DNA from: Thalassospira profundimaris
GTDB lineage: Bacteria; Pseudomonadota; Alphaproteobacteria; Rhodospirillales; Thalassospiraceae
NCBI RefSeq assembly: GCF_003326795.1
Contig: NZ_JPWI01000003.1
Span: 62,001 to 126,000 of the forward strand
Direction: 5' to 3'
Length of the DNA stretch: 64,000 nucleotides
The notes beneath the pieces are model-generated. The model was not told the DNA's origin and made no database searches. It saw only the letters and a program-made list of their open reading frames with translations. Within the stretch, counting starts at the first letter, position 1. Every line of letters begins with the position of its first letter. Positions 17,887-33,150 of this stretch are shown piece by piece. A program made the position numbers and the translations under genes.

Positions 17887-20800
17887 CCGGGGCTGAACAA
17901 CCGTCCAGCAAGGCATCACAGAAAACAAGACGTTCCCGTTCTGCATCAAGATGGGGGCGTTATGCTGCCTATGGTCTGGGCGGTGCCGTGCTTGGCGTTA
18001 CCGGTATTGTGACGATTGCCGGAACCGGCCCGGTTCTGCGTGCGCTTACCCCGATGATCAATGAAACGGTATCGACCGCAACGGACAGCACCTTTGAGAT
18101 TGGCCGCATAGAAGGAAGTCTTTGGACTGGTCTGACGCTTGATCGTCTTTTGATGGACCGGGCGGGCGATGGTTTTCATCTTGAACTGGGATCGGCTGAT
18201 TTTGACTGGTCGCCACTGGCCTTGTTGGGCGGGACATTAAAGGTCAATCATCTTGGACTTCAAAGTGCAAAGGTTGTTCTGCCAAATACGACAGGCCTGG
18301 AAGAGGTCGAGGAAGAGACATCTGATTCAGAAAGCGGTCTTTCTCTTCCGCTTGCCGTTGCAATCGACGCCGTCGCGCTTCGCGAGATAGCGCTGATTGA
18401 TCCGCTGTCAGGCAAAGAGTTTCTGTATGGGCTTAATGCCAAGGCAGCGGTTGGAACCAATCTTTCGGCAACGGCGAAGATTGATTTGCACCCGCTGGAT
18501 GACGGGTCTGACCGGTTTGATGTTGATCTGGATTTCGATGGACCGGATCAGCGACTGGCTGCGAAAATCGATGGCGCGCTTGGGCGAGAAGGCCTTGTCA
18601 TGACCCTTGCCGGGGTGGCGCCCGATGTAGCCACCGATATCGATATCAAGCTTGCCGGGAATGGTCCGGCGAATGACTGGCGGGGAACACTTGATGTCGG
18701 GGCAGATGGCTATGGCGCACTGTCAGCTGACATCGGTGTTCAGCTTTCATCTGATATTCTGGCTTTCACACTTGATGGTGGTCTTGAGACATTTGATCGT
18801 ATCTCTGATCAGTTGCCAGAGCAGTTGCGCAAGAAAATCGATCTTGGCATTGGCGGGGCGTTTGATGCTGATCATCAGCGCCTGTCATTTGATCGTGTTT
18901 CGGTTGCGATGGCGGATGCGGTGGCGATTTCGGCCACGGCTGATCTTGATCTGGCAGAAAGCACTGTGGCGGCCAAGCTTGATGGCAAGATCGATCCGGC
19001 ATTGTCCGCACTTGTTGATGACGCGGTGACATGGGGGCAGCTTGATCTTGGTGTTTCTGCCAAGGGTGATCTTGCCATGCCAGGGGTTGAGGTCACGATT
19101 GACGGGCGCGATGTCACAACACCGGTCTCTACCATTGCGAATGTGACAGTGCGCGCCGATATGCCCGAACCCGAAAATGATGATGCGATCACGGCAAGTC
19201 TTATGGCATCGACATCGGGAAGTGACTGGCAGGATACAGATCTTGCGGCGTTTCTTGGCACGGGTCAGGAGTTGTCCCTTAATGCGTTGATATCGTCTGA
19301 TTTTTCCAGTGTGGCGCTGCGGGATATGCTGGTTTCAGCACCCCAAATGAAGCTGCATGGTGATGCCGAACTTGATGGTGCCTTTGCCATCACGACAGCC
19401 AAGCTGACCGGTGATGTTGCCGATCTTTCGATCTTTGCCCCGATTTCCGGACTTGATCTGAGCGGGCAGGGGCAGGTCACGCTTGGCAACATGTCGTGGT
19501 CGACAGAAGCCGGATTAAAAAGCGATCTGGCAATATCAACAACCGAAACCGGATTTGGCATTGCCGATCTTGACCGGATTGTCGGACCATCCCCAACGAT
19601 CACCGGTCAGGTCGCGCTGATGCCAAATCTTGATCTGACAGTTGATCTGGCATCGGTCGAGACCGCGACGGTCAAGGGACCGGTCAGGGTCGATATTACC
19701 GAAGAATTTGAACGTCTTGCCGTAGTTGGTGATCTTGATGTTGCCCCCGGAACTGTCCCGCCAGAAATAGGTGTTTCAATCGCACCGGCAAAGCTTTCCG
19801 TGCGGCTGGATGGCGATATATCAGCGCCGCCGGGCCAGATAGAACTTGTGGTGCCAAGCGTCGAGGCCGGTGGGCAACGCTTTGACAAGGTTGCACTCTC
19901 AACCCGGATGGAATGGTCGGATCAGGCGGTATTGTCGCTGCTTAATCGCGGTGCGTTTACTCTTGGCAAACATGGTTATGAACTTGCGGCAAATGTGGGA
20001 CTGCCTGATGACGGTCTGAGGGTTGAAGGGATTTCATTGCGTGGCGATTATTTGGTGCTGCGCGGTGATCTGATGCTGCCCGATTATGCCACACCGATCC
20101 AGGGCAACATTGTGCTCGAAAATCTTGATGCCGAATTGCTTGGTGATTTCGGTGTGCCCTTTGCCAATGGCACTGTGACAGCCGATCTTGGATTTACTCC
20201 CGATGGCGAACGTCAGACAGTCACAGTTTCCGCACTTGCAATGGGGCTTCGCATGATTGTGGAAAGTGATGGCAACCCGTCGATGATCGAGGATGTCGAA
20301 CTTGATGCCACGGTTCGCGATGCCTTCGCCGCCCCGGATATCACAGCCAAGCTTGAAGGACGCGATATCGTCTTTTCGCCAGTCGCAATTGATGACATAT
20401 CGCTGGACGTAAAAGGCGGGCTGGAAGCGCTTGATATCGTTTTAAATACCAGCGGTCTTTATCAGGGAAATGTCCCGATATCAGCCGACCTTGTCGCAGA
20501 TATCGCTCTTGGCCCGGACATCAGTGTGACAGCACGGAAATTTGATTTCGATGTCAGTGATCAGGCAGTCACCCTGCGTCGTCCGTTGCAATTCGTCATG
20601 GCCGCAAACGGGCAACAGAAACTTGACGTCGATCTTGCGGTCGGGTCCGGGCAGCTTGTTGCACGCATGACACAGGAAGCCGGTCAGAAATCGATCAAGG
20701 GTGATGTGTCGCTTGACGGTGTCGATCTTGCCCCATGGGGTCGCATTGCCGGGTATGACGGACTAAGCGGGACAGCCAACCTGTCGGCAAACTTGCGTGA

Positions 20801-22319
20801 AAGCAGGGGAACCTTGCCAGCCGTACAGGTCAAAGGGCGGATCACAGGTATTACTGCCAAGGCGGTCAAGGATCTCGAACCATTTGAGATGGCACTCGAT
20901 ATTGATCTGACCAAGGGCATTCTGAAAGGTACGGCAAATCTCGCCAATTCGGATATCGAGGCGCTGTCAGCAAAGGGTACGGTGCCGCTTGCGATTTCGG
21001 TCCTGGAACAGAATTTCAGTCCCGATCTTTCGGCGCCTGTATCGGCCAGCGTTCGCATGAATGGCCAGATCGCCGAATTCTGGCCCTATGTCCCGGCACC
21101 GGACCATCAGGTTTCGGGCAAGATCAGGCTTGAGCTTGATGTTGCCGGAACGCTTGATGATATCGGCTGGAATGGCAATCTGGATCTTTCGGATGGCCAT
21201 TATGAAAATCTGGTCTATGGCACGATCCTTGATCAACTGGCCCTTAAGGGAGAATTTGATCAGAACGGGCTTTCGATCCCGTCGATCACGGCAACGGATG
21301 GCGGGAATGGCAGTCTTGATGCGTCGGTTGATCTGAAAATGAAGGATGGCGGTGAGGTCGCCTATGAGGTGACCACCAAGCTGCGTAATTTTGCCTTGTC
21401 GCGGGTCGATGAATTGCGGTTCTGGGCGGATGTCGATACCAAGGTCAATGGCAATCAGAACGGTGCCGATATCAAAAGTACCGTTGCCGTTCAGCGTGGC
21501 GAGGTTGATCTGTCACTGGCATTGCCAGAATCCGTTCCGACGATCGAGATTTCGAACCTTCCTGACGAAGCGGAAAAGGAAAAGGCCCGCAAGGCCGCCG
21601 ACAAGGATACCGGTTTTGTCGGTAATCTGGATGTTACGGTCGATATCCCCGGACGATTGTTTGTACGCGGCAAGGGGCTTGATTCCGAGTGGGGCGGGTC
21701 ACTTGAAATTTCAGGGACGACCGACGATCCCCGGATTGTCGGGCAGTTGTCTGCGCTTCGCGGGCAGCTTGATATCATTGGCAAAACCTTTGTGATCAAG
21801 GATTCCAAAATCACCTTTGCCGGGGGCTCGCCGCCTGATCCGATGCTTGATATCAAGGGTATCTACACGACAACCGATCTTGAAGTTTCCGCGGGCTTCC
21901 AGGGACCGGCAAGCGATCCTGAACTGGTCCTGTCATCCAATCCGTCCTTGCCCGAGGATGAAATTCTGTCGCAGGTCCTGTTTGGCAAATCACAAGGCAG
22001 TCTGAGTGCTGTCGAAGCCGTGCAGCTGGCGAGTGCGCTTAATGAATTGTCCGGCGGCGGCAGTGGTCTTGATGTGGTTGGCAGTGTGCGCCGTTTTATC
22101 GGGGCTGACGTGCTTCAGGTTGGTGGTGGCGAAGACGGGCCCGAGGTCAAGGTTGGCAAATACCTGAGCGAGGGCGTCTATGTCGGTACCAAGGCCGGGG
22201 CAACACCGGGATCAAGCGGGGTCGAAGTCGAAATCGAGGTCACGCCGAATATCAGCGTGACCAGTGAAAGCACCGAGATCGACAGCAAGGCCGGTGTGCA
22301 GTATCGGCTGGATTACTAA
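17883..22319 (+). CDS. tamB: TamB, translocation and assembly module inner membrane component
   Basis: A 1478-residue AsmA/DUF490 protein. A basic N-terminus and a single membrane helix (about 30-50, GLGGAVLGVTGIVTIAG) are followed by a very long, Asp/Leu/Gly-rich beta-helical repeat region and the C-terminal TamB domain (from about 1100, with KDSKITFAGGSPPDPMLDIKG and the tail SKAGVQYRLDY). It spans the periplasm and docks on TamA. The start is TTG 17883 in a TTGA overlap with tamA, so the pair is translationally coupled. It ends against the convergent kdgK-like gene with a 4-base overlap. Confidence 0.93.
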   Translation: MTGAEQPSSKASQKTRRSRSASRWGRYAAYGLGGAVLGVTGIVTIAGTGPVLRALTPMINETVSTATDSTFEIGRIEGSLWTGLTLDRLLMDRAGDGFHLELGSADFDWSPLALLGGTLKVNHLGLQSAKVVLPNTTGLEEVEEETSDSESGLSLPLAVAIDAVALREIALIDPLSGKEFLYGLNAKAAVGTNLSATAKIDLHPLDDGSDRFDVDLDFDGPDQRLAAKIDGALGREGLVMTLAGVAPDVATDIDIKLAGNGPANDWRGTLDVGADGYGALSADIGVQLSSDILAFTLDGGLETFDRISDQLPEQLRKKIDLGIGGAFDADHQRLSFDRVSVAMADAVAISATADLDLAESTVAAKLDGKIDPALSALVDDAVTWGQLDLGVSAKGDLAMPGVEVTIDGRDVTTPVSTIANVTVRADMPEPENDDAITASLMASTSGSDWQDTDLAAFLGTGQELSLNALISSDFSSVALRDMLVSAPQMKLHGDAELDGAFAITTAKLTGDVADLSIFAPISGLDLSGQGQVTLGNMSWSTEAGLKSDLAISTTETGFGIADLDRIVGPSPTITGQVALMPNLDLTVDLASVETATVKGPVRVDITEEFERLAVVGDLDVAPGTVPPEIGVSIAPAKLSVRLDGDISAPPGQIELVVPSVEAGGQRFDKVALSTRMEWSDQAVLSLLNRGAFTLGKHGYELAANVGLPDDGLRVEGISLRGDYLVLRGDLMLPDYATPIQGNIVLENLDAELLGDFGVPFANGTVTADLGFTPDGERQTVTVSALAMGLRMIVESDGNPSMIEDVELDATVRDAFAAPDITAKLEGRDIVFSPVAIDDISLDVKGGLEALDIVLNTSGLYQGNVPISADLVADIALGPDISVTARKFDFDVSDQAVTLRRPLQFVMAANGQQKLDVDLAVGSGQLVARMTQEAGQKSIKGDVSLDGVDLAPWGRIAGYDGLSGTANLSANLRESRGTLPAVQVKGRITGITAKAVKDLEPFEMALDIDLTKGILKGTANLANSDIEALSAKGTVPLAISVLEQNFSPDLSAPVSASVRMNGQIAEFWPYVPAPDHQVSGKIRLELDVAGTLDDIGWNGNLDLSDGHYENLVYGTILDQLALKGEFDQNGLSIPSITATDGGNGSLDASVDLKMKDGGEVAYEVTTKLRNFALSRVDELRFWADVDTKVNGNQNGADIKSTVAVQRGEVDLSLALPESVPTIEISNLPDEAEKEKARKAADKDTGFVGNLDVTVDIPGRLFVRGKGLDSEWGGSLEISGTTDDPRIVGQLSALRGQLDIIGKTFVIKDSKITFAGGSPPDPMLDIKGIYTTTDLEVSAGFQGPASDPELVLSSNPSLPEDEILSQVLFGKSQGSLSAVEAVQLASALNELSGGGSGLDVVGSVRRFIGADVLQVGGGEDGPEVKVGKYLSEGVYVGTKAGATPGSSGVEVEIEVTPNISVTSESTEIDSKAGVQYRLDY

Positions 22320-23266
22320 CCGAGTTCCAGATCGCTGATATCAACCAGTGCTCCGTGACGGCAGATCACCCGGCCGGCTACTTTCTGGGCAATGCTGATG
22401 GCCCCTTCGACACTTTGGCCATGCGAACGTGCGGCCAGAAACGCCCCGTTAAAGGAATCACCGGCCGATGTTGTATCGACGATCTCGGTGATGACGGGCG
22501 GGGTAACGAAACCGGACTGGCCGTCCTTGTTGCACCAATAGGTCGGATCGCCCCCCGATTTGACGATGACTTCGCGCACTCCGGCTTCAAGCCAGCGCTG
22601 CCCGGTTTCCTGCGCGGATTTGTCGCCAAACAGGGCCGCATCATCATCAAAGGTCGGAAGAACAGTGTCACAGAACAGCGCAATGGCGCGATAAATGTCC
22701 ATCGCGGTCTGATCGCCGGACCAAAGACGCGGACGATGATTGGTGTCGAAATAGACCTTGCCGCCCTTGTTGGCGTAATCGGCGACAAGGGCGATCATTT
22801 TCTGGCGATCATCGGGCGACAGGATCGCAAGACTGATCCCCGAAAGGTAAAAGCCGTCAAAACGCCCGAAAGAATCCCTGATTTGTGCGTCATGACCGCC
22901 ACCAAGAACCTGCTTTGCTGCGGCCTGATCACGCCAGTAGGAAAAACTGCGCTCGCCGTCTGCGTCGGTCTGGATGGTATAAAGGCCGGGAAGAGCGCCA
23001 TCGATCCGGCGAACAAGATCTGTGGCAATGCCGTCGGACTGCCAGGCTTCGATCATCGCGTTGCTATAGGCGTCGGTGCCAAGTGCGGTGATATAGGAAG
23101 CGCATTTAATGCTGGCCGGGTCAAGAAGACGGCTGGTACGTGCCATATAGGTTGCGGCATTCAGGGTATCCCCGGCAAAGCCAAGCTTTGCTGCACCAAA
23201 AACCGTGCCGGGCTGCGCACCGGAAAGCTCAAGCATACATTCACCGATAAACGCGATGTGGGGCAT
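22316..23266 (-). CDS. kdgK: PfkB-family sugar kinase, 2-keto-3-deoxygluconate kinase-like
   Basis: A 316-residue ribokinase-fold enzyme. The opening IGECMLELSG and AAKLGFAGDTLNAATYMAR resemble KdgK (KDG to KDPG), and the anion-hole/catalytic base motif DTTSAGDSFNGAFL is intact. It lies 45 bases downstream of the RpiR/HexR-like regulator and in line with ridA, forming ridA-regulator-kinase on the minus strand. It would feed KDG into the Entner-Doudoroff pathway. Another 2-keto-3-deoxy sugar acid or ketose is possible, since PfkB specificity is hard to read from sequence. Confidence 0.82.
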   Translation of the reverse strand: MPHIAFIGECMLELSGAQPGTVFGAAKLGFAGDTLNAATYMARTSRLLDPASIKCASYITALGTDAYSNAMIEAWQSDGIATDLVRRIDGALPGLYTIQTDADGERSFSYWRDQAAAKQVLGGGHDAQIRDSFGRFDGFYLSGISLAILSPDDRQKMIALVADYANKGGKVYFDTNHRPRLWSGDQTAMDIYRAIALFCDTVLPTFDDDAALFGDKSAQETGQRWLEAGVREVIVKSGGDPTYWCNKDGQSGFVTPPVITEIVDTTSAGDSFNGAFLAARSHGQSVEGAISIAQKVAGRVICRHGALVDISDLELG

Positions 23267-23311
23267 TGGGTAACCTTTGAACTTGGGTAAGATAATTCCG
23301 TGACAATGCGC

Positions 23312-24196
23312 CTAGTCGCCGATCGGCTGACGCCCGGTAGGCGGGTTGAGCGTCAAAAGCGACGACCGGATGCGACGCAGCTTCTCTTTTGCCTGATCAG
23401 GCATGCGTCGCGCAACTGCTGTTGCAATCACGTCAATGGTTGCCAGAAAGGCATGGCGCGTTGCGGTCGGTTTGTAGATGTCCGGGTTTTCGGGCATTTC
23501 GATCCCGATCACCAGATCGCTCTCAGCCGCAAGGGGGCTGTCAGGGTGGGTCAGGGAAATGACCTTGGCGCCATATTGCCGGGCAATGGCCGCAGAATGG
23601 ATAAGCTCGGTCGGGCGACCGCTGGTTGAGATGGCAAACACCACATCTTCCGGGCCAAGGGTCGAAGACAGCATGCGCTGCAAATAGCCGTCACTTTGTG
23701 ACTGTGCGGGAATGCCAAGCCTGAAAAAGCGGTTGGCCGCATCAAAGGCCACCATGGTCGACCCGCCCCCGACACCAAAAAAGGCAATCTGGCGTGCCTT
23801 GACCAGAATGTCGGCGGCCTTGTCGATCTGTTCGGATGAAATCTGATCGCGGAGCAGGCGCAGGTTATCAATGATCACACCCAGAACGTGACTTGAAAGT
23901 ACGTCTGCGGCAGTTGTGTCATCCGAAATATCCTCGGATGTCAGATACTGCATGCTGACCGCAAGATTTTGCGCCAGACGCATTTTGAAATCACGAAAAC
24001 CGTCACAGCCCAGTGTCCGGCAAAAACGGATAACCGTTGGCTCGCTGACCCCGACATTACTGGCAAGATCGGAAAGGGCAATCGTGGTGACAGCTTCCAG
24101 ATTTTCACTGACATAATCGGCGACCAGCTGTTCCCGGTTGGGAAAGCTTCCCGACTGGCTGCGCAGCAGGCTGATGATGTCGGCGGTCGGTTGCAT
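23312..24196 (-). CDS. RpiR/HexR-family transcriptional regulator
   Basis: A 294-residue regulator. The N-terminal helix-turn-helix (about 30-75, ALSDLASNVGVSEPTVIRFCRTLG) and the C-terminal SIS sugar-phosphate-binding domain (about 125-260, FFGVGGGSTMVAFDAANRF and ISTSGRPTELI) are both clear. HexR, the best-known member, senses KDPG and binds TGTAAT-type palindromes. Three similar boxes lie in the ridA-TRAP gap. ATG 24196 is preferred to the GTG one codon upstream; neither has a strong ribosome site. Its position between ridA and kdgK suggests local autoregulation. Confidence 0.85.
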   Translation of the reverse strand: MQPTADIISLLRSQSGSFPNREQLVADYVSENLEAVTTIALSDLASNVGVSEPTVIRFCRTLGCDGFRDFKMRLAQNLAVSMQYLTSEDISDDTTAADVLSSHVLGVIIDNLRLLRDQISSEQIDKAADILVKARQIAFFGVGGGSTMVAFDAANRFFRLGIPAQSQSDGYLQRMLSSTLGPEDVVFAISTSGRPTELIHSAAIARQYGAKVISLTHPDSPLAAESDLVIGIEMPENPDIYKPTATRHAFLATIDVIATAVARRMPDQAKEKLRRIRSSLLTLNPPTGRQPIGD

Positions 24197-24276
24197 CACA
24201 CTGGTCCGGTTCTGTTTTCAGGGACGGGTAGGGGCGCCACAGACAATTGCCGTTCATGGCACCCCTTTGGCAAGTA

Positions 24277-24666
24277 TCACTTTTCCGGCTTGTAAGCGAT
24301 AGCTTCAATTTCAATTTTGGCGTCAACCATCATCTGAGACTGTACCGTAGAACGTGCAGGACGCTCATTGGGGAAGAATTCCGCATAGACGCGGTTAAAG
24401 GTCCAGAAATCGCGGGTATCAGCCAGCCAGACATTGATCTTGAAAACATCGTCAAGGGTGCAATCGGCAAGTGCGAGGGCGGCTTTGACATTTTCCATGG
24501 TCAGGCGTGTCTGGTCCTCGATACCGCCATAGGCGATTTCACCATTTTCCTTCATGGCAACCTGACCGGAAATATAAACGTAGTCACCCGCACGAACGGC
24601 CGGAGAAAAAGGTAGTTTCTGTCCGCCGGCACCGCTGCGCTCATTGCCATAATGTTTGATCGCCAT
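24277..24666 (-). CDS. ridA: RidA-family enamine/imine deaminase
   Basis: A 129-residue RidA/YjgF protein. The conserved arginine that binds the substrate carboxylate is in NERPARSTVQSQMMVD, and the C-terminal KIEIEAIAY is typical. RidA hydrolyses reactive enamines/imines released by PLP dehydratases to ketoacids and ammonia. Here it starts an apparent ridA-regulator-kdgK operon and is divergent from a TRAP operon that contains a PLP dehydratase-family gene, a fitting partner. The ATG has GGGAGAT upstream. Confidence 0.88.
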   Translation of the reverse strand: MAIKHYGNERSGAGGQKLPFSPAVRAGDYVYISGQVAMKENGEIAYGGIEDQTRLTMENVKAALALADCTLDDVFKINVWLADTRDFWTFNRVYAEFFPNERPARSTVQSQMMVDAKIEIEAIAYKPEK

Positions 24667-24721
24667 GGAAATCTCCCTGCTTTGGCTTGCGGGTGCAGAT
24701 CAGAACGCACCCTGTTTAAAA

Positions 24722-24736
24722 TGTAGTTTAACTACC
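24722..24736. promoter_or_regulatory. HexR-like box 1 in the ridA promoter region
   Basis: TGTAGTTTAACTACC: the core GTAGTTTAACTAC is a perfect 13-base palindrome, 55 bases upstream of ridA. It shares the TGTAG half-site and 15-base length with two further boxes nearby. Confidence 0.65.
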
Positions 24737-24795
24737 TAAAGCAGTTTCAAAATTCGGTCAATAGCGGAAAATTTGCGCCGATGATGTTAAAAATG

Positions 24796-24840
24796 TGTAG
24801 ACAAGCTACAAAAATGATCTCAGGATGTAGAAAAATTACA
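24796..24840. promoter_or_regulatory. HexR-like boxes 2 and 3 upstream of the TRAP operon
   Basis: TGTAGACAAGCTACA (24796-24810) and TGTAGAAAAATTACA (24826-24840) have centres 30 bases apart, close to three helical turns. The second ends 32 bases before the dctQ start, a repressor-compatible position. They fit a 15-base TGTAR-N5-YTACA pattern resembling known HexR sites. Confidence 0.65.
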
Positions 24841-24872
24841 CAAAAGATTCATCAGCGGAGAGATTGGCGAAG

Positions 24873-25394
24873 ATGGCATTACGCCGTGTTGAAACCATTG
24901 CAGCGACCCTAAGCCGTTCCCTGAACTGGGTTGTCGAACGCGTTATTGCGCTTTTGATGCTTGTTCTGGTTCTGGATGTCTGGCTTGGCGTTATTGATCG
25001 ATACATTTTCCATTGGCAACTACCCTGGCCCGAGGAACTCGCCCGTTATCTGATGATCTGGGCGGCACTTCTGGCGATTTCGGCCGGGATTGCGCGCCGC
25101 GAGCATATAGGGATCGGGATGTTTGTTCTGAGCCTGCCAATGCCGATCCAGCGCAGCATCCTGTTTCTGGTCGATCTGATTGCACTCGCCGCATTCCTCT
25201 ATCTTGCGATCTATGGATTGGGCTTTGCCGAAGGCGGCATGCGCCGTCAGGCCATGATTTTCGGGATGTCGCTCGCACTTCCCTATGCCGCAGTACCGGT
25301 CTCAAGCCTGTTGGCGGCAATCCAGCTTCTTCTTGTAGCCTTGCGTGATCAGGGCCGCTTCATCCCGGTTGATCTTGCGGAGGGCGCGGAATGA
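24873..25394 (+). CDS. dctQ: TRAP transporter small permease, DctQ
   Basis: A 173-residue membrane protein with four helices and the DctQ landmark PWPEELARYLMIWAALLAI. The start is ATG 24873; an in-frame TTG at 24864 sits too close to GGAG to be convincing. It ends in an ATGA overlap with dctM. The binding protein gene follows dctM, so the operon order is dctQ-dctM-dctP, different from the two other TRAP sets in the window. By context it imports an amino-sugar acid or similar substrate (inference). Confidence 0.88.
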   Translation: MALRRVETIAATLSRSLNWVVERVIALLMLVLVLDVWLGVIDRYIFHWQLPWPEELARYLMIWAALLAISAGIARREHIGIGMFVLSLPMPIQRSILFLVDLIALAAFLYLAIYGLGFAEGGMRRQAMIFGMSLALPYAAVPVSSLLAAIQLLLVALRDQGRFIPVDLAEGAE

Positions 25395-26671
25395 TCGTCG
25401 CCATTATCTTTGTCGTTCTGATGGTTTTGGGCATGCCGATCGGTTTTGCCCTGGGTGTGGCAGGTGTCGTTGGCCTGTTTGACATGGGCGGGGGGATGTT
25501 TCTGTCCCAGGGCCCAAGCAAGGTATTTAACGGACTGAACGTCTTTCCGTTCCTTGCCATGCCTTTCTTTATTCTTGCTGGCGAAATCATGAACCATATC
25601 GGCATCACAAGCCGTCTGGTGAAATTTGCCCAGGCCCTTGTCGGGCATATGCGTGGTGGTCTGGCCCATACCAATATGCTGGCATCCGTTTTCTTTGCGG
25701 GACTTACGGGTGCCGCAACGGCGGATGCGGCGGCCTTTGGCAAGACGCTTGTTCCTGCCATGGTCGAACGCGGATATCGCCGTGACTATGCCTGTGCGGT
25801 GACGGCCGCCGGGTCGATCATCGGCCCGACCATTCCCCCATCGGGACTGATGGTGGTCTATGGCTCACTGATGGGGGTTTCGATTGGTGGTCTGTTTGCC
25901 GCAGGTATTTTGCCGGGTCTAATGATCTGTCTGATCTGCATGACCGTGATTGCGGTGACGGCACGCGCCAAGAACCTGCCGAAAAATGAACGTCGGGCCA
26001 CACTTCTTGAAATCTGGCAGATTTTCAAATCATCGATTACCGCACTGATCATGCCTCTGATCATTCTGGGCGGCATTCTTGGCGGGATTGTCACACCGAC
26101 CGAGGCTGCATCGGTTGCGGTTGCCTATGCGCTGTTTATCGGTGTGTTCATCTATCGTGCGCTGAGCTTTGCCGATTTCTTCGGGATGCTGGTGCGCACA
26201 GCCCGCGTCACGGGCGTGATTTTCGTGATTATTGCCTTTGCGTCGATCCTCGGCTGGTGGCTGAGCTTCAATCGCATTCCGCAAGAAGTCGCAAGCCTTG
26301 TTCTGGGTGTGTCCGGGAACCCCTATATCGTGATCTTCATGATTGTCGGTCTGCTTCTGCTGATCGGTATGGTGATGGATATCAACGCCATCCTGATCAT
26401 TCTGGCACCGGTTCTGGTTCCGCTGACAGTCCAGATCGGAATGGACCCGATCCATGCCGGGATCATCTTTATCCTTGCGCTCAATATCTCGCTGATGACG
26501 CCGCCTGTCGGGGCCTGTCTGTTCGTGTTGTCATCGGTGACGGGTGAAAAGCTTGAAAAAATTGCAGCACAGCTTTGGCCATTCCTTTTGGCTGAACTGG
26601 GTGTGCTGTTCCTGTTTGCCTTCTGGTCGGATCTGGCGCTCGCGATACCGCGACTGCTGGGCTTCCGCTAG
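25391..26671 (+). CDS. dctM: TRAP transporter large permease, DctM
   Basis: A 426-residue polytopic permease with about 12 membrane segments. The family landmarks are GITSRLVKFAQALVGHMRGGLAHTNMLAS in pieces, GSIIGPTIPPSG and ILGGIVTPTEAASVAV. It forms the sodium-driven translocation pathway with DctQ. Its ATG overlaps the dctQ stop; dctP starts 99 bases downstream, after a short spacer with AGGAGAGG. Confidence 0.93.
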   Translation: MIVAIIFVVLMVLGMPIGFALGVAGVVGLFDMGGGMFLSQGPSKVFNGLNVFPFLAMPFFILAGEIMNHIGITSRLVKFAQALVGHMRGGLAHTNMLASVFFAGLTGAATADAAAFGKTLVPAMVERGYRRDYACAVTAAGSIIGPTIPPSGLMVVYGSLMGVSIGGLFAAGILPGLMICLICMTVIAVTARAKNLPKNERRATLLEIWQIFKSSITALIMPLIILGGILGGIVTPTEAASVAVAYALFIGVFIYRALSFADFFGMLVRTARVTGVIFVIIAFASILGWWLSFNRIPQEVASLVLGVSGNPYIVIFMIVGLLLLIGMVMDINAILIILAPVLVPLTVQIGMDPIHAGIIFILALNISLMTPPVGACLFVLSSVTGEKLEKIAAQLWPFLLAELGVLFLFAFWSDLALAIPRLLGFR

Positions 26672-26770
26672 GCCTGCGGGGTGAAGGCAGCCCCGGTCAG
26701 TCCGGGCCGGGGCACGCACCAAAACAAAATGCCGGACACCATAAAGTCGTTACATCAAGGAGAGGTAAGA

Positions 26771-27826
26771 ATGAAAACCGTAAAGCGTTTGGGCGCAGCC
26801 GCCCTGGCAACTGCGATGCTGATGGGCAGCACCTCGATGGCGTTTGCCGAGGCCAAAGTCCTGAAATTCGCCCACGACAATAAAACCGACCCGTTCGAAA
26901 ACCCGGCACATGCCTGTACTGCTGTTTTTGCCAATATTGTCGAAGCTGACACCAATGGCGAAATCAAGGTTGAAGTCTATCCGTCCAACCAGCTTGGTTC
27001 GGCCGCCGAACATGTTCAAATGGTTCGTGATGGTCTGATTCAGGGTACCCTGACCTCGACCGGGGCGCTGGCATCCTATTATCCGCGCATCGATGTTCTG
27101 AACCTTGCATTCGCATTTGACAGCAACGCGTCCACCTATGACGTATTTGATGGTCCTTTCGGCTCGGCGCTTGCGTCTGACATCGAAGGTACCCTTGGTG
27201 ATGTCAAGGTTCTGGGCTTCCCTGATACCGGCGGGTTCTTTGCTGTGACCAACTCCCAGCATGCGATTGCCACCCTTGAGGATTTCAAGGGTATTCGTAT
27301 CCGCACCATGTCACTGCCGTCACACCAGAAAATCATGCAGGCACTGGGTGCAGAAGCATATCCGATGGCCTGGGGCGAAGTTTATGCCGGCCTTCAGACC
27401 GGCGTGATCGACGGTCAGATGAACCCGGTTCCGACCGTGACCTTTGCCAAGTTCAACGAAGTTCAGGGATACCTGACCCTGACCAATCACCTGTTCTCGC
27501 CTTACACCATGATGCTGTCCAAAGCATTCTGGGATGACCTGACCGCCGATCAGCAGAAAATCATCCGCTACGCTGCCCAGTCTTGCGTTGTTGCAAGCCG
27601 CGGTGTGTCACGCGTGATCGAGGCGTCTGATCGTGGTCTTGCCGGTCTTAAGGACAAAATGGAAATCACCGCTCTGTCGGCTGAAGACCGTGAAAAGTTC
27701 AAAGAGGCAACCCAGCCGGTCGTGATCCAGCACGTACAGGAAAGCCTTGGCGACGAAGGTGTGAAACTTCTGAACCTGTTCAAGGAAGAAGTCGAGAAAG
27801 CCAACGCCAGCCGCTACATGGAATAA
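26771..27826 (+). CDS. dctP: TRAP transporter substrate-binding protein, DctP family
   Basis: A 351-residue periplasmic receptor. The Sec signal peptide (residues 1 to about 25, MAFAEA cleavage region) precedes the mature start VLKFAHDNKTDPFENPAH. The GIRIRTMSLPSHQKIMQALGAEAYPMAWGE region (in parts) carries the conserved carboxylate-binding arginine. ATG 26771 has AGGAGAGG 5-6 bases ahead and is followed directly by the signal peptide; the longer frame to 26681 is not credible. A GC-rich hairpin after the gene may limit read-through into the peptidase gene. Confidence 0.9.
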   Translation: MKTVKRLGAAALATAMLMGSTSMAFAEAKVLKFAHDNKTDPFENPAHACTAVFANIVEADTNGEIKVEVYPSNQLGSAAEHVQMVRDGLIQGTLTSTGALASYYPRIDVLNLAFAFDSNASTYDVFDGPFGSALASDIEGTLGDVKVLGFPDTGGFFAVTNSQHAIATLEDFKGIRIRTMSLPSHQKIMQALGAEAYPMAWGEVYAGLQTGVIDGQMNPVPTVTFAKFNEVQGYLTLTNHLFSPYTMMLSKAFWDDLTADQQKIIRYAAQSCVVASRGVSRVIEASDRGLAGLKDKMEITALSAEDREKFKEATQPVVIQHVQESLGDEGVKLLNLFKEEVEKANASRYME

Positions 27827-27839
27827 GCCATTCCACCCA

Positions 27840-27867
27840 CCGAAGGGGCGGCTTTCTGCCCCTTCGG
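27840..27867 (+). terminator. Hairpin after dctP
   Basis: CCGAAGGGGC (27840-27849) pairs perfectly with GCCCCTTCGG (27858-27867) around an 8-base loop, followed by ATTTCATT. The T-run is weak, so partial termination or 3'-end stabilisation of the dctP message is likely. Confidence 0.6.
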
Positions 27868-27912
27868 ATTTCATTAGCTGATATCAAAAGACCAATAACA
27901 AAGGCACGGGCC

Positions 27913-29382
27913 ATGCGGATTTTTTGCGCCTCGATTGCAACCGAGACCAATACATTTTCACCTTTAAGAACCGATTTTTCCGATTTTCAGGAAAGCTTTT
28001 ACGCGCCGCCTGGTCAGCATCCGGTAACCCCGACGCTGTGCAGTGCCGTCTTTACCGAAGGCCGCCTTCGTGCCGCAAAGGAAGGCTGGGACCTGATCGA
28101 AGGCACTGCAACCTGGGCTGAGCCCGGCGGGCTTGTCAGTCGCGAAACCTATGAACAGCTTCGCGACGAGGTTCTGGGGCAGCTCCGCGCGGCCATGCCG
28201 GTTGATGGCGTGATCCTTGGCCTGCATGGCGCGATGGTTGCGCAGGATTATCTTGATTGCGAGGGCGATCTTATTTCACGCATTCGCGCGCTTGTTGGTC
28301 CGGAAGTTGTGATCGGCACCAGCTTTGACCCGCATAGCCATCTGACTGCATTGCGTGTCGATAATGCCGACATCATCGTCGCCTTCAAGGAATTCCCCCA
28401 TACCGATTTCGTCGAAACCGGGCGTGCGGTGGTTGATCTTGTGTTGCGCACGCTGCGCGGTGAAATCACGCCGACCAAGGCAGTCTTTGATTGCCATATG
28501 ATCGAAGTCCTGCCGACATCGCGTGAACCGATGCGGTCCTTTATTGACCGCGCAAAGGATATGGAAGGGACGGGCGATATTTTATCGGTTTCCTTCATTC
28601 ATGGCTTTATGGCCGGTGACGTGCCCGACCTTGGTGCCAAGGTCATTGTCACCACCAACAATAACCCTGCGGAAGCCAAACAGATTGCACGAGACCTGGG
28701 GGTTGAGTTGTTTGGTTTCCGTGGGGCCACCCGGCCGACATTCCTTAAACCCGAAGCGGCCCTTGATCAGGCATTGGCGTCGGACGCCAAACCTATTGTG
28801 CTAACCGATGTCTGGGATAATCCGGGCGGAGGCGTACCGGGCGACAGCACGATTTTACTGCGCGCGGTGATGGAACGCGGGCTTTCTGATTATGCCTTTG
28901 GCACGCTTTGGGACCCGATGGCGGTAAAGATCTGTTTTTCTGCGGGCGAGGGCGCGACATTGCCGCTGCGCTTTGGCGGTAAAACCGGTGCCCATGCCGG
29001 TGCCCCGATTGACGCCGAGGTCACGGTCAAGAAGCTTGAACGTAATGCCTGGCAGTATTTCGGCGAAAGCATTGTGCCGCTTGGCGATTGTGCGGTGATC
29101 GTTCTTCCGGGCGGGGGTGAGGTGATCCTCAATACCAACCGGTCGCAAAGTTTCGATCCCAGCCTGTTTTCGAATATGGGGATCGATCCGAAATCAAAAA
29201 AATATTTGTTTATCAAATCGACCAATCACTTCTACGATGCCTTCGCCAAAATCGCGGGCGAGATCATCTATATTGATGTGCATGGTCCTTATCCTTCGGA
29301 TCCGAAAACCAATGGATACCGTCATGTCAAACGTCCGCTTTGGCCGATTGTCGATGATCCGTTTGCCCAAAAGGCCAGCTGA
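27913..29382 (+). CDS. M81-family metallopeptidase (MlrC/DUF1485-like)
   Basis: A 489-residue protein of the M81 family, named for MlrC of the microcystin degradation pathway. Recognisable are the start MRIFCASIATETNTFSP, GLHGAMVAQDYLDCEGDLI, ASFDPHSHL-like GTSFDPHSHLT and VWDNPGGGVPGDST. Members are zinc-dependent amide hydrolases whose natural substrates are mostly unknown. It lies between the TRAP genes and a D-threonine aldolase family gene, with 55 bases to the latter. I infer hydrolysis of an amide-linked precursor imported by the TRAP system. Confidence 0.88.
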   Translation: MRIFCASIATETNTFSPLRTDFSDFQESFYAPPGQHPVTPTLCSAVFTEGRLRAAKEGWDLIEGTATWAEPGGLVSRETYEQLRDEVLGQLRAAMPVDGVILGLHGAMVAQDYLDCEGDLISRIRALVGPEVVIGTSFDPHSHLTALRVDNADIIVAFKEFPHTDFVETGRAVVDLVLRTLRGEITPTKAVFDCHMIEVLPTSREPMRSFIDRAKDMEGTGDILSVSFIHGFMAGDVPDLGAKVIVTTNNNPAEAKQIARDLGVELFGFRGATRPTFLKPEAALDQALASDAKPIVLTDVWDNPGGGVPGDSTILLRAVMERGLSDYAFGTLWDPMAVKICFSAGEGATLPLRFGGKTGAHAGAPIDAEVTVKKLERNAWQYFGESIVPLGDCAVIVLPGGGEVILNTNRSQSFDPSLFSNMGIDPKSKKYLFIKSTNHFYDAFAKIAGEIIYIDVHGPYPSDPKTNGYRHVKRPLWPIVDDPFAQKAS

Positions 29383-29437
29383 TTGTTGATTGCCATCGCC
29401 CCTTCGCGTCACCACCGAAAATCAAAGGACGTTTTTC

Positions 29438-30508
29438 ATGACCCGTTCACCGCAATATCCCCAACTTGATACGCCTTGCGCGGTGATCAATCTTGATACG
29501 GTCGATCGCAACGTAAATGCCTATCAGGCCTATTGCGACAAGCACGGTATTGCGCTGCGCCCGCATATCAAGACTCACAAGATCCCGGCCTTTGCCAAAC
29601 AGCAAATCGATGCCGGGGCCAGGGGAATTACCTGTCAGAAAATTGGCGAGGCCGAAATTATGGCCGATGCCGGACTGGATGACATTCTTCTGACCTATAA
29701 TGTGTTGGGAGAACGCAAGCTTGCCCGTCTGCGTTCCTTGTTTGACCGGATCAAAACACTTCGTGTTGTTGCCGATAACGAGGCCGTCATCGAAGGCCTG
29801 TCGCGTGCCTTTTCTGACAGTGCCAAGCCGCTGGAAATCCTGATTGAATGTGATACCGGCGGCGGACGTTGTGGTGTGCAAAGCCCCGATGCAGCAGTGG
29901 TTCTTGCACAAAAGATCCAATCCCTTCCGGGCATTGCCTTTGCCGGTCTGATGACCTATCCGGCGGCCGGTGGTGGACCGAAAGTCGGCGGGTTCTTTGG
30001 CGATGCCATGGCCAAGCTCGACGCGGTCGGGATTGACTGCCCGATCAGAAGTTCGGGCGGGACACCCGATATGTGGAAGGCCCACGAAGTATCGAACGTC
30101 ACCGAACATCGTATCGGCACCTATATCTATAACGACCGGTCATTGATGGCGCGTGAGGTCTGTGGCGAGGATGATTGTGCACTTCGTGTTCTGGCCGAGG
30201 TGGTTTCACTCCCGGCACCCGGACGTGCAATCATTGATGCGGGATCAAAGGTTCTGACTTCCGATCTTTTGGGTCTTGAGGGATATGGCTGTGTCGTTGG
30301 CCATCCCGAGGTCAATGTGGTCGGTCTTTCCGAAGAACACGGCATCCTGCATTTCGAGGCCGATCTGAGCCCGTTTGAAATCGGCGAGCGGATCGAAATC
30401 ATCCCCAACCATGTCTGCGTGGTCAGCAATATGCTTGATCAGGTGCATCTGGTGCGTGGGGACGTGATCTCAACGGTCGATGTCACCGCACGCGGCAAGG
30501 TTTTGTAA
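29438..30508 (+). CDS. D-threonine aldolase / D-serine dehydratase family PLP enzyme (possible D-glucosaminate dehydratase)
   Basis: A 356-residue fold-III (alanine racemase-like) PLP enzyme. Lys45 in RPHIKTHK is the expected Schiff-base lysine. The C-terminal metal pair appears as His325-Val-Cys327 (IPNHVCVV), the HxC form found in D-serine dehydratases rather than the HxD of D-threonine aldolases. The start ATG 29438 follows AAAGGAC. D-glucosaminate dehydratase is, as I recall, a metal- and PLP-dependent enzyme with aldolase side activity, compatible with this family. With kdgK and ridA nearby I favour a 2-amino-2-deoxy sugar acid dehydratase; a D-hydroxyamino acid lyase remains possible. 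Confidence 0.8.
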   Translation: MTRSPQYPQLDTPCAVINLDTVDRNVNAYQAYCDKHGIALRPHIKTHKIPAFAKQQIDAGARGITCQKIGEAEIMADAGLDDILLTYNVLGERKLARLRSLFDRIKTLRVVADNEAVIEGLSRAFSDSAKPLEILIECDTGGGRCGVQSPDAAVVLAQKIQSLPGIAFAGLMTYPAAGGGPKVGGFFGDAMAKLDAVGIDCPIRSSGGTPDMWKAHEVSNVTEHRIGTYIYNDRSLMAREVCGEDDCALRVLAEVVSLPAPGRAIIDAGSKVLTSDLLGLEGYGCVVGHPEVNVVGLSEEHGILHFEADLSPFEIGERIEIIPNHVCVVSNMLDQVHLVRGDVISTVDVTARGKVL

Positions 30509-30533: not shown

Positions 30534-30551
30534 CCCGGCGGTCACGCCGGG
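30534..30551. terminator. Hairpin between convergent genes
   Basis: CCCGGCG (30534-30540) pairs with CGCCGGG (30545-30551) around GTCA. It overlaps the stop of the leftward hypothetical gene and follows the rightward PLP enzyme gene. There is no T-run. Confidence 0.45.
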
Positions 30552-31033
30552 TCGTGATTGGGCAGATAGCCGGTGAAACCGGTGATCAGCCATTTCCCGT
30601 CATCCTGTTTTTCGCAGTAATAATGGGTTTTCCAAAGCAGACGGTCTTCTGTGCCGTCTTCTTTTTTGATGCGCCCGTTGAAATGTTTGCGCACCAATGC
30701 GCGGTTGCCGGTAATGTCGATTTTCTCAAGCCTGGTTGCACGAAATACACCCGCATAAAGGTCTTCGGCAAACGCGATTTTTTGCGCTTCGATCGCCTGA
30801 CGCAGCCATTCATCGCGATAGGCCCCAAGATCGGGAAACATCATTTTCCAGTCATCGGGATTATCGGATTTACAGGCATCAATCGCATAAAACCCGTCTG
30901 CCTTGAAATCATCCTCGACCATCGACCAGTCGGCGGCAACGAAGGCCGCAATATCGCGCGGAACCAGCATTTCCCATATTTGATTGCGGTCGGTATCAGA
31001 TGGCGGAAACGGGCTTTGATCGGTGGGGCGCAT
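30542..31033 (-). CDS. Hypothetical protein, possibly NTF2/SnoaL-like
   Basis: A 163-residue soluble protein. No signal peptide or membrane segment is visible. The C-terminal half (FNGRIKKEDGTEDRLLWKTHYYCEKQDDGKWLITGFTGYLP) has the alternating strand pattern and the K-W-I-xGF ending seen in NTF2/SnoaL-type domains, and the N-terminus has paired tryptophan-containing helices (MLVPRDIAAFVAADW). I do not recognise a specific family. It is convergent with the PLP enzyme gene and divergent from the hydrolase gene, so it stands alone. Confidence 0.7.
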   Translation of the reverse strand: MRPTDQSPFPPSDTDRNQIWEMLVPRDIAAFVAADWSMVEDDFKADGFYAIDACKSDNPDDWKMMFPDLGAYRDEWLRQAIEAQKIAFAEDLYAGVFRATRLEKIDITGNRALVRKHFNGRIKKEDGTEDRLLWKTHYYCEKQDDGKWLITGFTGYLPNHDPA

Positions 31034-31231
31034 TGCTGTCTATCCGGTTGATATAAAAATGATTTAACCCATTTTCGCATCCCGGCGATGGCGGTTCAAT
31101 CACAGAAGAAACAAACGCGTAAAAATACGCATCCCCGATGCGAAGTGATTGCAAACAGGGAAAAATTGAAGAAAGATCGGTATTGAAGATCAGATCGTAT
31201 ACAGATCTAACCCATAAAATCCGAGGTGCCG

Positions 31232-32083
31232 ATGGCTTGGGGTGGTTTCACATCAGCTGAACTTGAATGGCAATATAATCCGCGCGAAACCGTGCCGGAA
31301 TTCATGACGCATTTCGAACGGTTTGTGAAACTGTCCGGTGAAACCCGCGCACAGTTGGGCGGCAAAATTGATGTCCGGTTCGGTGACGGACCCAAGGAAA
31401 CCATGGATGTTTTCATGGCATCCGATCCCGGTGCCCCGGTTCATATCTTCTTCCATGGCGGATACTGGCGCAGTCAGGACAAAAAGGATTATGCCTTTGT
31501 CGCCCGTGATCTGGTGGCGGCCGGGTTTACGGTGATTTGCCCGAACTATGATCTTTGTCCTGATGTCACGGTGGCCGATATCACCGAGGAAGCCGTGCGT
31601 TGCATCGACTATGTCTATCGCAATGTCGAAGATTTTAACGGGGATCGGGACAATATCTCGATCTCTGGCCATTCAGCAGGCGGGCAGATTGTCGCGCGCC
31701 TTGCCACCCATGACTGGGAAGAAACACTTGGCGATGCGACACCGTTTTCGGCCGTGATTCCGATTTCGGGTGTTTTTGATCTTGAGCCGATCCGTCACAC
31801 CAGTCTGAATGACGATATTCGTCTTGATGAAGCATCGGCTGCAGATAATTCCCCGATGCTTGATGCTGTGCCGATGGATGTGCATATGATGGTCATTGTC
31901 GGCGGCAATGAAAGCCCGGAATTCGTGCGCCAAAGTGATGCCTATGCAGCCTATTGCGGAAGTGCCGGGCACAAGGTTCCTGTCTACAAGGCCTGGGGGG
32001 CGAACCACTTTACCGTGCTTGAAGAAGTGTTTTTGGGTACCGGTTCGTTGTTTGGGCATCTCAAGCGGTTCCTGCAACCGTAA
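31232..32083 (+). CDS. Alpha/beta hydrolase, kynurenine formamidase-like
   Basis: A 283-residue hydrolase. The oxyanion motif HGGYWRSQDKKDY and the nucleophile elbow SGHSAGGQ are those of the arylformamidase/esterase-lipase group; the C-terminal GANHFTVLEE carries the catalytic histidine. ATG 31232 is preferred over GTG 31226, with GAGG upstream. In the kynurenine pathway such enzymes hydrolyse N-formylkynurenine, but no kynureninase or dioxygenase is nearby, so an amide or ester hydrolase with another substrate is equally possible. The same-strand ornithine cyclodeaminase homologue begins 125 bases later. Confidence 0.8.
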   Translation: MAWGGFTSAELEWQYNPRETVPEFMTHFERFVKLSGETRAQLGGKIDVRFGDGPKETMDVFMASDPGAPVHIFFHGGYWRSQDKKDYAFVARDLVAAGFTVICPNYDLCPDVTVADITEEAVRCIDYVYRNVEDFNGDRDNISISGHSAGGQIVARLATHDWEETLGDATPFSAVIPISGVFDLEPIRHTSLNDDIRLDEASAADNSPMLDAVPMDVHMMVIVGGNESPEFVRQSDAYAAYCGSAGHKVPVYKAWGANHFTVLEEVFLGTGSLFGHLKRFLQP

Positions 32084-32208
32084 ATCACGGAAAATCACCT
32101 AAAAACAGCATGAAAAACCATCGCACTTCCTGTGACGCGGGCAGTCTGACGTGATATAAAAAATGTCCGCTACCATACTGAAACACAAATAATTCTACAG
32201 GAAGGCCC

Positions 32209-33150
32209 ATGCGTTTCGTTACTGCCGAAGATATCGACAAATTTGTATCGCCCCGTGATCTGGTTGAAGCCCTTCGTGATGGTTTTGCACAAGGCTGCGA
32301 AGCGCCGTTGCGCAGTCATTTCAACATGGAACGCAGTAACGAGGATGATGCAACTTTCCTGATCATGCCAGCCTGGCAAAAAGACGGGGCAGCGGGTGTT
32401 AAAATCGCCGCTGTTGTGCCGGGGAATTCTGCACGCAATCTTCCGGCGGTTTCGGGAACCTATGTGCTGCTTGATGCGGTCACCGGACAGCCATCGGCCG
32501 TGATTGATGGCACCAAGCTGACCACGCGCCGCACGGCGGCGGCATCGGCGCTGGCGGCTGACTATCTGGCACGCGAGGATGCGACGGATATGGTCATGGT
32601 CGGTTCAGGTGCCATGGCCCCGCAATTGATCAAGGCCCATGCGTCGGTGCGTCCGATCAAAAATGTCACGATCTGGAACCGCAATGCCGACAAGGCGATG
32701 AAACTTGCCACCGAGATCGCCGAACTTGGTTTCAATGCGTCGGGAACCGATGATCTTGAAACCGCCTGCAAGTCCGCAGACCTGATTTCATGTGCGACCC
32801 TTTCGACCGAGCCGCTGGTACGCGGTGACTGGCTGCGTGATGGCACCCATGTCGATCTGGTGGGCGCGTTCAAGCCGACCATGCGCGAAAGTGATGATGC
32901 CGTCATGGCGAAATCGCGCATCTATGTCGACAGCTTCGAAGGGGCCAGCGCCGAAGGCGGCGATGTTGTTCAGGCAATCAAAAGCGGTGCCATCGCCAAG
33001 TCCGATATCATCGGTGATCTGTTTGGCCTGACCCGTGGTGAAGTCAAAGGGCGTGAAACCGATGGCGAATGCACGGTGTTTAAATCCGTCGGACATTCGC
33101 TGGAAGATTTCTTTGCCGCTGTTACTGTAGTCAAGGCGGTTGAAAAATGA
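32209..33150 (+). CDS. Ornithine cyclodeaminase/mu-crystallin family protein
   Basis: A 313-residue NAD(P)-dependent enzyme. The N-terminal substrate domain has the family segment GVKIAAVVPGNSARNLPAVSGTYVLLDA (in parts) and TTRRTAAASALAADYLA; the Rossmann core begins at MVMVGSGAMAP. Members include ornithine cyclodeaminase, alanine dehydrogenase and ketimine reductases, so the exact reaction cannot be assigned. It ends in an ATGA overlap with a thioesterase gene, which points to a shared pathway. Confidence 0.85.
   Translation: MRFVTAEDIDKFVSPRDLVEALRDGFAQGCEAPLRSHFNMERSNEDDATFLIMPAWQKDGAAGVKIAAVVPGNSARNLPAVSGTYVLLDAVTGQPSAVIDGTKLTTRRTAAASALAADYLAREDATDMVMVGSGAMAPQLIKAHASVRPIKNVTIWNRNADKAMKLATEIAELGFNASGTDDLETACKSADLISCATLSTEPLVRGDWLRDGTHVDLVGAFKPTMRESDDAVMAKSRIYVDSFEGASAEGGDVVQAIKSGAIAKSDIIGDLFGLTRGEVKGRETDGECTVFKSVGHSLEDFFAAVTVVKAVEK

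Follow-up and report, generated by a model that had tools for sequence, protein, structure and literature searches.

Eight genes between positions 22316 and 30508 of a 64,000-nucleotide stretch of Thalassospira profundimaris DNA (contig NZ_JPWI01000003.1, positions 62,001 to 126,000; the whole stretch is called the window) form a cluster which, as read here, imports and degrades an N-acyl-2-amino-2-deoxyaldonate, most likely N-acetyl-D-glucosaminate (GlcNAc1A). In this reading, to which we assign a probability of roughly 0.55, a protein of the M81 metallopeptidase family is predicted from sequence and gene context to act as N-deacylase. GlcNAc1A would be the monomer released from chitin oxidised by lytic polysaccharide monooxygenases (LPMOs). 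The window lies within a 4.68 Mb genome of 38 contigs. Two divergent operons with eight genes of named families had been described here in the initial annotation, and this description was borne out: all eight open reading frames are intact, the Pfam families agree, and the operons run outward from the 197 bases that separate ridA from dctQ.

We infer the substrate, the target of the regulator and each reaction as follows. The solute-binding protein DctP of a tripartite ATP-independent periplasmic (TRAP) transporter would capture the sugar acid, which DctQM would import. A cytoplasmic M81 zinc enzyme would then take off the N-acyl group to yield D-glucosaminate (GlcN1A), in the place held by OngB in the ong pathway described below, and an enzyme dependent on pyridoxal 5'-phosphate (PLP) and metal would remove ammonia to give 2-keto-3-deoxygluconate (KDG), in the place of OngC. 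RidA would speed the hydrolysis of the enamine/imine, a dispensable step, before KdgK would phosphorylate KDG to 2-keto-3-deoxy-6-phosphogluconate (KDPG), to be split by a KDPG aldolase from outside the cluster; the genome has two matches to the KDPG-aldolase family. The HexR/RpiR-type regulator would repress both operons through palindromes shared in the divergent promoter region, and its effector would probably be a phosphorylated keto-deoxy sugar acid. The conversion of D-glucosaminate to KDG and KDPG has published precedent and is not new in kind; the likely novelty is the predicted use of one M81 clade and of a PLP enzyme from the D-threonine aldolase (D-TA) subfamily for the OngB and OngC steps. 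A wider proposal, to which we give somewhat less than an even chance, is that alphaproteobacteria own an independently assembled route for the oxidised chitin monomer, with the M81 clade as GlcNAc1A deacetylase and the D-TA-subfamily enzyme as D-glucosaminate ammonia-lyase.

Relation to the ong pathway

The proposed route is supported by the ong cluster of Pseudoalteromonas prydzensis, where OngD (RidA), OngR (RpiR) and KdgK belong to a proven pathway with its reactions in that order (PMC9537276). According to that text, OngB deacetylates GlcNAc1A, OngC deaminates GlcN1A to KDG and KdgK phosphorylates KDG. OngC is a fold-type III PLP enzyme that also deaminates D-serine and D-threonine, OngD belongs to the RidA family and is required for growth in a role described as unknown, and OngR is a repressor of the RpiR family (PMC9537276). 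OngB, whose structure is described in PMC12017989, is a D-aminoacylase-like amidohydrolase, and the term M81 is absent from the main text of that paper. In Aeromonas, matches to OngB and OngC are distant or lacking, and the accessible part of PMC11653859 leaves other deacetylases and deaminases possible.

RidA, the RpiR/HexR-like repressor and KdgK of the ong type are all present in the window cluster, together with a PLP deaminase candidate of the same fold-type III class, and the proposed route shares with the ong pathway a cytoplasmic, non-phosphorylated start and KDPG as end product. The two systems differ in that the ong cluster has OngB whereas the window has an M81 protein unrelated to it, in that the ong transporter is a sodium/solute symporter (SSS) whereas that of the window is of the TRAP type, and in that OngC belongs to another subfamily than the window PLP enzyme. 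In addition, the ong cluster contains the GH20 enzyme OngA and an AA10 LPMO, whereas no match to GH20 or LPMO_10 was found in the window genome. Finally, the complete pathway was reported from Gammaproteobacteria and one betaproteobacterium, in a survey whose criterion was four ong-like genes (available text of PMC9537276), whereas the window is alphaproteobacterial. Searching the window genome with a gammaproteobacterial OngC-type query returned the PLP gene as its sole match (45.7 bits, 27% identity over a partial match). No OngB-type gene lies among the locus genes, and no full-length OngB counterpart was found in the genome when six loci of 19 Amidohydro_3 matches were compared (the strongest alignment reached 45 bits over 63 residues).

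Ong-type clusters were sought in the class of genome G151, where 197 of 369 genomes searched had a match and loci L152 to L162 were fetched. One of them (L154) holds SSF, RidA, OngB-, OngR- and OngC-type genes, two (L152 and L153) hold OngC, a GntP permease, OngR, OngB and RidA, and a fourth (L156) holds OngC, OngB, RidA, a gene labelled IclR and what by eye is an SSF-like protein. Canonical ong clusters in Alphaproteobacteria were considered and rejected: among 18 OngC-type loci, fetched from 115 matching of 289 alphaproteobacterial genomes, none has an OngB or RpiR relative and two have RidA (L177 and L181). Five of these 18 loci (L174, L178, L179, L180 and L182) carry an M81 gene from outside the window clade, with Opp-type genes as well in L174 and L182; they may represent a further combination of M81 and OngC.

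The M81 protein and the PLP enzyme

The M81 gene (27913-29382, plus strand; Pfam DUF1485 and MlrC_C) encodes a putative cytoplasmic N-deacylase, the N-terminus of which shows no signal peptide by eye. Its AlphaFold model (pLDDT 86.6) matches the microcystinase MlrC (TM 0.83; PDB 7ylq) and 3iuu, and its score against the NCBIfam MlrC family is 380 bits, under the cut-off of 999. The zinc ligands and substrate-binding residues of MlrC are named in the available text of PMC9982164. All four ligands, E39, D167, H169 and H191, are kept as E11, D139, H141 and H163 and are invariant in a 29-row alignment of the window clade. In contrast, seven of the ten listed MlrC residues differ in kind (W59, F67, E70, S392, Q468, S485 and R492), while N41 and D341 are kept and the change of F96 to tryptophan was counted as similar. 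The residues found in the places of W59, F67 and E70 (A31, T39 and L42) are themselves invariant in the clade alignment. The kept ligands and replaced substrate-binding residues suggest that the clade retains the metal site within a pocket of its own. Microcystin degradation was rejected as a function on account of the unmatched MlrC cut-off and the replaced residues. The earlier suggestion that the M81 protein frees an amino-sugar acid from an amide can be sharpened, since its predicted step is the one that OngB, the deacetylase for GlcNAc1A, performs in the ong pathway; the acyl group would be acetyl or possibly another.

The PLP gene (29438-30508, plus strand; Ala_racemase_N, PF01168, and D-ser_dehydrat, PF14031) is the single member of its family found in a search of the genome, and its closest named relatives in the locus search come from a Rhodospirillales metagenome-assembled genome and from T. 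profundimaris, each at 89% identity. The two domains and the metal pair H325-x-C327 identify the product as a fold-type III enzyme of the D-serine dehydratase type, predicted to be an amino-sugar-acid dehydratase (ammonia-lyase). In alignments with PDB entries, H-x-C is found in the window enzyme and in D-threo-3-hydroxyaspartate dehydratase, whereas two D-threonine aldolases have H-x-D; mutants of this dehydratase at C353 and H351 are named in the titles of 3wqg and 4pb3. H-x-C occurs in 91 of 95 relatives and H-x-D in none, the remaining four rows not being properly matched by the motif search. By sequence, the metal motif is of the dehydratase and not of the aldolase type. This strengthens the initial assignment of a D-threonine aldolase/D-serine dehydratase-family protein as a dehydratase, the substrate of which may have the gluco-, galacto- or manno-configuration.

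The AlphaFold model of the PLP protein (pLDDT 90.2) matches the folds of D-TA, D-threo-3-hydroxyaspartate dehydratase and D-serine dehydratase (TM 0.84-0.89, 28-33% identity), with which it also shares the two-domain family; structure searches with the PLP and M81 models revealed no new kinship. Against the NCBIfam equivalog BhcC, which has a cut-off of 690, the PLP protein reaches 182.6 bits. A known PLP enzyme, as far as its available description goes, likewise converts an amino-sugar acid into a keto-deoxy acid and ammonia, with the difference that its substrate is a 6-phosphate, unlike that proposed for the window enzyme. We take it to belong to another PLP family.

Exchange of enzyme pairs between loci

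Neighbourhoods were surveyed at 80 named PLP loci, the best 80 of 589 confirmed, with best-segment identities of 50-89% and neighbours counted within 8 kb (ten loci have less than 8 kb on one side). Neighbours were labelled by similarity to a limited set of references, most of those without a label being left unassigned, and the counts were made without de-duplication over collections (PLSDB and other genome sets) which may share organisms. M81 was found at 47 loci, RidA at 48, RpiR at 44, GH20 at 19 and KdgK at six, while OngB and OngC were found at none; a tblastn recount gave the same numbers. The neighbour survey called for by the initial annotation thus recovered the combination of PLP, M81, RidA and RpiR genes across numerous alphaproteobacteria, where GH20, NagA or ROK-kinase genes frequently accompany it; KdgK was recovered in the six loci only.

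In a tree of 122 M81 proteins, the window protein falls in a clade of 57 (support 100), 55 of which are linked to a PLP gene. These make up 55 of the 71 PLP-linked rows, the other 16 being 14 second copies in GH20 clusters and two proteins of L203. The PLP linkage of many rows follows from the search design, in which loci were chosen by their PLP gene, and the M81 and PLP trees were built with FastTree only and gave long-branch warnings. The clade spans four transporter classes (TRAP, Opp, sugar ABC and GntP, ABC standing for ATP-binding cassette), and two of its members, in L194 and L038, have no PLP gene.

A second survey was centred on M81 and not selected by PLP: 103 of 289 alphaproteobacterial genomes had a match, and 38 loci were fetched. 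Among the matches listed, M81 proteins of at least 60% identity occur in six genomes, including the window's own, with the PLP gene close by in all, adjacent in five and separated by a few genes in G774 (L183). All four of the fetched loci with such an M81 hold the PLP gene. Among the other 34, L203 has a PLP gene (52% identity, 6.8 kb away), L186 a distant relative, and 32 have none, suggesting that a single M81 clade and not the whole family is tied to the pathway. In L186, the distant PLP relative (34%) adjoins an M81 gene (56% identical to that of the window) lying outside the window clade.

Two further kinds of locus speak for an exchange. In the hybrid operons L242 and L248, from two genomes of the same family and genus, OppABC, an OngB/D-aminoacylase-like protein (36-37% identical to OngB-type proteins; 227 and 259 bits), a RidA-like protein (33%), IclR, a window-type PLP enzyme (46% identical to that of the window in L242), OppD and a KdgK-like kinase (40-41%) occur together with no M81; OppF is labelled in L242 only. 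Conversely, L075 holds a GntP permease, 48% identical to that of the ong-type loci L152 and L153, beside PLP, RidA and M81 genes, hence either enzyme pair (OngC with OngB, or PLP with M81) occurs with GntP; L109 has PLP-RidA-M81 and a GntP fragment label. Finally, in L038 (Ponticoccus) a clade M81 gene stands with TRAP and RpiR genes, a few genes from RidA and a gene 34-37% identical to OngC-type proteins. These hybrid operons, the sharing of GntP, the 80-locus survey, the M81 clade, the M81-centred survey and L038 suggest that the M81 protein and the D-TA-type PLP enzyme may replace OngB and OngC.

Transporter and substrate

The TRAP genes lie on the plus strand: dctQ for the small permease (24864-25394; PF04290), dctM for the large permease (25391-26671; PF06808, with TIGR00786 above its cut-off) and dctP for the solute-binding protein (26771-27826; PF03480). 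The dctP reading frame opens at 26681, and a signal-like N-terminus is seen by eye at the 26771 start. Among solved structures, DctP is nearest to 4p47 (open, without ligand) and 7bbr (CxaP, 163 bits), a TRAP sugar-acid binder crystallised with KDG (available texts of PMC11668362 and PMC12076931). CxaP, the nearest solved relative with a known ligand, binds xylonate, fuconate, galactonate and gluconate, and no amino-sugar acid is among the ligands found in the accessible part of PMC12076931. Binding of sugar acids by this relative supports the degradation of an acylated amino-sugar acid proposed for the window. Five further solved relatives score close behind, including 4x8r (glucuronate), 4ngu and 4n8g. 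The latter two are presumably D-Ala-D-Ala binders.

Several observations weigh against the proposed route. The sole M81 activity found in the open-licence literature, as available in part, is peptide hydrolysis by MlrC, no published link between M81 and amino-sugar-acid chemistry was found in the open-licence literature searched, and a simple transfer of the MlrC mechanism is disfavoured because its proposed general base, E70, is a leucine here. M81 proteins outside the window clade are mostly not near a PLP gene, KdgK is linked in only six of the 80 PLP loci, and genes for Opp-type binding proteins, a peptide class, lie within 8 kb at nine of them. The PLP gene also occurs with amino-acid ABC genes and no M81, hence its substrate may vary by locus. 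The GH20 clusters hold NagA and ROK-kinase genes as well, and a further M81 from a different clade is often present (the 14 rows mentioned above), so that co-location alone assigns no step to M81. Since neither GH20 nor LPMO_10 has a match in the window genome, other organisms would have to supply the GlcNAc1A, which this bacterium would scavenge as monomer. M81 is found in one of seven loci with an amino-acid ABC transporter versus 40 of 45 with other recognised transporters (Fisher p=1.4e-4, with L076 coded as amino-acid ABC), which fits a free zwitterionic amino acid as substrate there, since this would need no deacylation. However, transporter class was rejected as a predictor of M81, as it had no power after tree control, with two independent pairs (L076 recoded as Opp).

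Some of these observations would suit the import of D-amino-acid dipeptides or similar amides, with M81 as D-peptidase, the PLP enzyme as D-serine/D-threonine dehydratase, RidA clearing 2-aminoacrylate and the kinase as a passenger or in another role. MlrC, the characterised M81 enzyme, is a peptidase in its available description, the Opp-type genes and the place of 4ngu and 4n8g among the seven closest solved relatives of DctP agree with a peptide substrate, and activity on D-serine and D-threonine is known even for OngC. Nevertheless, we hold this explanation to be unlikely. It leaves unexplained the kinase, which is also found in the Opp loci L184 and L185, as well as the GH20, NagA and ROK neighbours and the hybrid operons containing an OngB-like protein; moreover, DctP is nearer to the sugar-acid binder CxaP, and the substrate-binding residues of MlrC are replaced in the window clade.

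Kinase, RidA and regulator

The kdgK-like gene (22316-23266, minus strand; Pfam PfkB) encodes a sugar kinase predicted to act on KDG. KdgK is by far its best NCBIfam family, at 308.5 bits (cut-off 400) with the next family at 85.6, and its best PDB match is the ketodeoxygluconokinase 3lhx (243.9 bits). A KdgK-like kinase accompanies M81 and PLP genes in the TRAP loci L039, L040, L045, L048, L052, L031 and L037, and one of 43% identity stands beside RpiR in L184 and L185, just over 8 kb from the PLP gene. The 29 loci with sugar ABC as their only recognised transporter include none of the six with a linked kinase. RidA (24277-24666, minus strand; Ribonuc_L-PSP), of the OngD type within the enamine/imine deaminase family, scores 99.5 bits against TIGR00004 (cut-off 106.25). 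The single pathway from transporter through PLP dehydratase and RidA to KdgK that was originally proposed is indirectly favoured by the ong enzyme types and the recurring gene sets, less so in its kinase and RidA parts, given the rare linkage of KdgK and the dispensability of RidA.

The GTG-started regulator gene (23312-24199, minus strand; HTH_6 and SIS) encodes an OngR-like protein, 32-39% identical to three gammaproteobacterial OngR-type proteins. HexR is its best NCBIfam family, at 220.4 bits under a cut-off of 296, and likewise the best family of the OngR-type protein of L154. Since the best NCBIfam scores of the kinase, the regulator and the PLP protein are all under the curated cut-offs, KdgK, HexR and BhcC are family-level names only.

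With the kinase and PLP proteins both under equivalog cut-offs and stereochemistry beyond what sequence can set, another 2-amino-2-deoxyaldonate, such as galactosaminate, mannosaminate or a different N-acyl form, could be handled by the same enzyme logic, the kinase then acting on 2-keto-3-deoxygalactonate (KDGal) or a related keto-deoxy acid. The binding of several sugar acids by CxaP (available text of PMC12076931) agrees with this. The GH20/NagA context and the experimental precedent for GlcN1A favour the gluco form, and such a substrate therefore seems rather improbable.

Three operator-like palindromes, TGTAG-N5-CTACA, were identified by pattern search at 24722-24736, 24796-24810 (exact) and 24826-24840. 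These are the only sites within one mismatch in the window, all in the ridA-dctQ gap, where 0.26 would be expected in the window and none of 100 shuffles reaches three. The middle palindrome is the sole exact copy in the genome, which holds 21 sites within one mismatch versus 219 for a control pattern. The exact site is kept in all ten Thalassospira-type loci, nine of which have three sites and one (L236) two. The palindrome presumably resembles the HexR operator. The motif was rejected as a family-wide mark: L049 is the only locus other than the Thalassospira-type ones in which an exact intergenic site was seen, and the control pattern is commoner over the 92 loci scanned (78 versus 16 sites).

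Conservation and layouts within the genus

The ten Thalassospira-type loci comprise eight same-genus stretches (L229-L236), L039 and L040. Kinase, regulator, TRAP, M81 and PLP genes have the same layout in all of them, with M81 between transporter and PLP genes. Three of them (L232, L233 and L234) lack ridA in its place between operators and regulator although they encode the remaining seven proteins; RidA can therefore be dispensed with at the locus. Of the other same-genus genomes searched, G073 has no PLP gene and four have one that is less closely related (52-54%). In two loci fetched from these four (L237 and L238), and in the named Thalassospira-type locus L087, IclR and RidA genes diverge from PLP and KdgK-like kinase genes with no M81; amino-acid ABC genes are labelled severally in L237, as one fragment in L087 and not in L238. 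This layout is possibly a variant for unacylated D-glucosaminate.

The lack of M81 in L237 and L087, which do hold PLP, KdgK-like kinase, RidA and amino-acid ABC genes, suggests that the core may work without it. If so, the window cluster might import free D-glucosaminate, with M81 in a side role such as lactone opening or the cleavage of another amide. This we consider very unlikely, in view of the position of M81 between transporter and PLP genes in all ten window-type loci examined, the association of the M81 clade with the PLP gene over four transporter classes, and the likeness of the TRAP protein to binders of anionic sugar acids.

Amino-sugar context and significance

All but one (L117) of the 19 PLP loci with GH20 within 8 kb also have M81, and NagA, ROK kinase, CutC and SDR genes recur among them. 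Nine GH20 N-termini inspected by eye show no obvious signal peptide. Possibly, imported oxidised chitobiose is split inside the cell at these loci, with GlcNAc passing to NagK/NagA and GlcNAc1A to the M81 and PLP enzymes. In L035, L054, L064, L080, L099, L108 and similar Rhizobiales/Rhodobacterales loci, two M81 genes of separate clades stand with a GH20 gene whose product shows no obvious signal peptide and with SDR, RpiR and NagA/ROK/CutC genes, in several also with RidA; most of these clusters encode a conserved small protein with no Pfam match (for example 168 aa, L035:7946-8449).

If the degradation of an N-acyl amino-sugar acid is confirmed, a substrate and a pathway would be assigned to an M81 clade in a family for which hydrolysis of the microcystin peptide is otherwise the only activity found in the sources available, and M81 would include an N-deacylase clade operating over four exchangeable transporter classes. 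In the Rhizobiales/Rhodobacterales GH20/NagA clusters, imported chitobionate would have its oxidised end unit handled by this branch as well. Oxidative chitin catabolism would then extend to marine and soil alphaproteobacteria, probably missed by the four-gene ong survey, and annotations as D-threonine aldolase, microcystinase-like protein or C4-dicarboxylate TRAP transporter may hide an amino-sugar-acid pathway.

Neighbouring genes

A reading frame of 1478 aa (17883-22319), on the strand opposite to kdgK, shares its last four bases with the 3' end of that gene. Downstream of the PLP gene, at 30542-33644, NTF2-like, alpha/beta-hydrolase, ornithine cyclodeaminase (OCD)/mu-crystallin and thioesterase-like genes follow in an order kept in L229-L235, L039 and L040, probably as lineage synteny; in L236 the NTF2-like gene alone is labelled. 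The beta-hydroxyaspartate cycle was considered because of the OCD/mu-crystallin family gene (32209-33150) and set aside on the low BhcC score of the PLP protein; the other cycle genes were not searched for. The OCD/mu-crystallin gene follows the PLP gene at a distance of 1.7 kb. Because reductases of its family can act on imines, it could conceivably be connected with the PLP/RidA chemistry.

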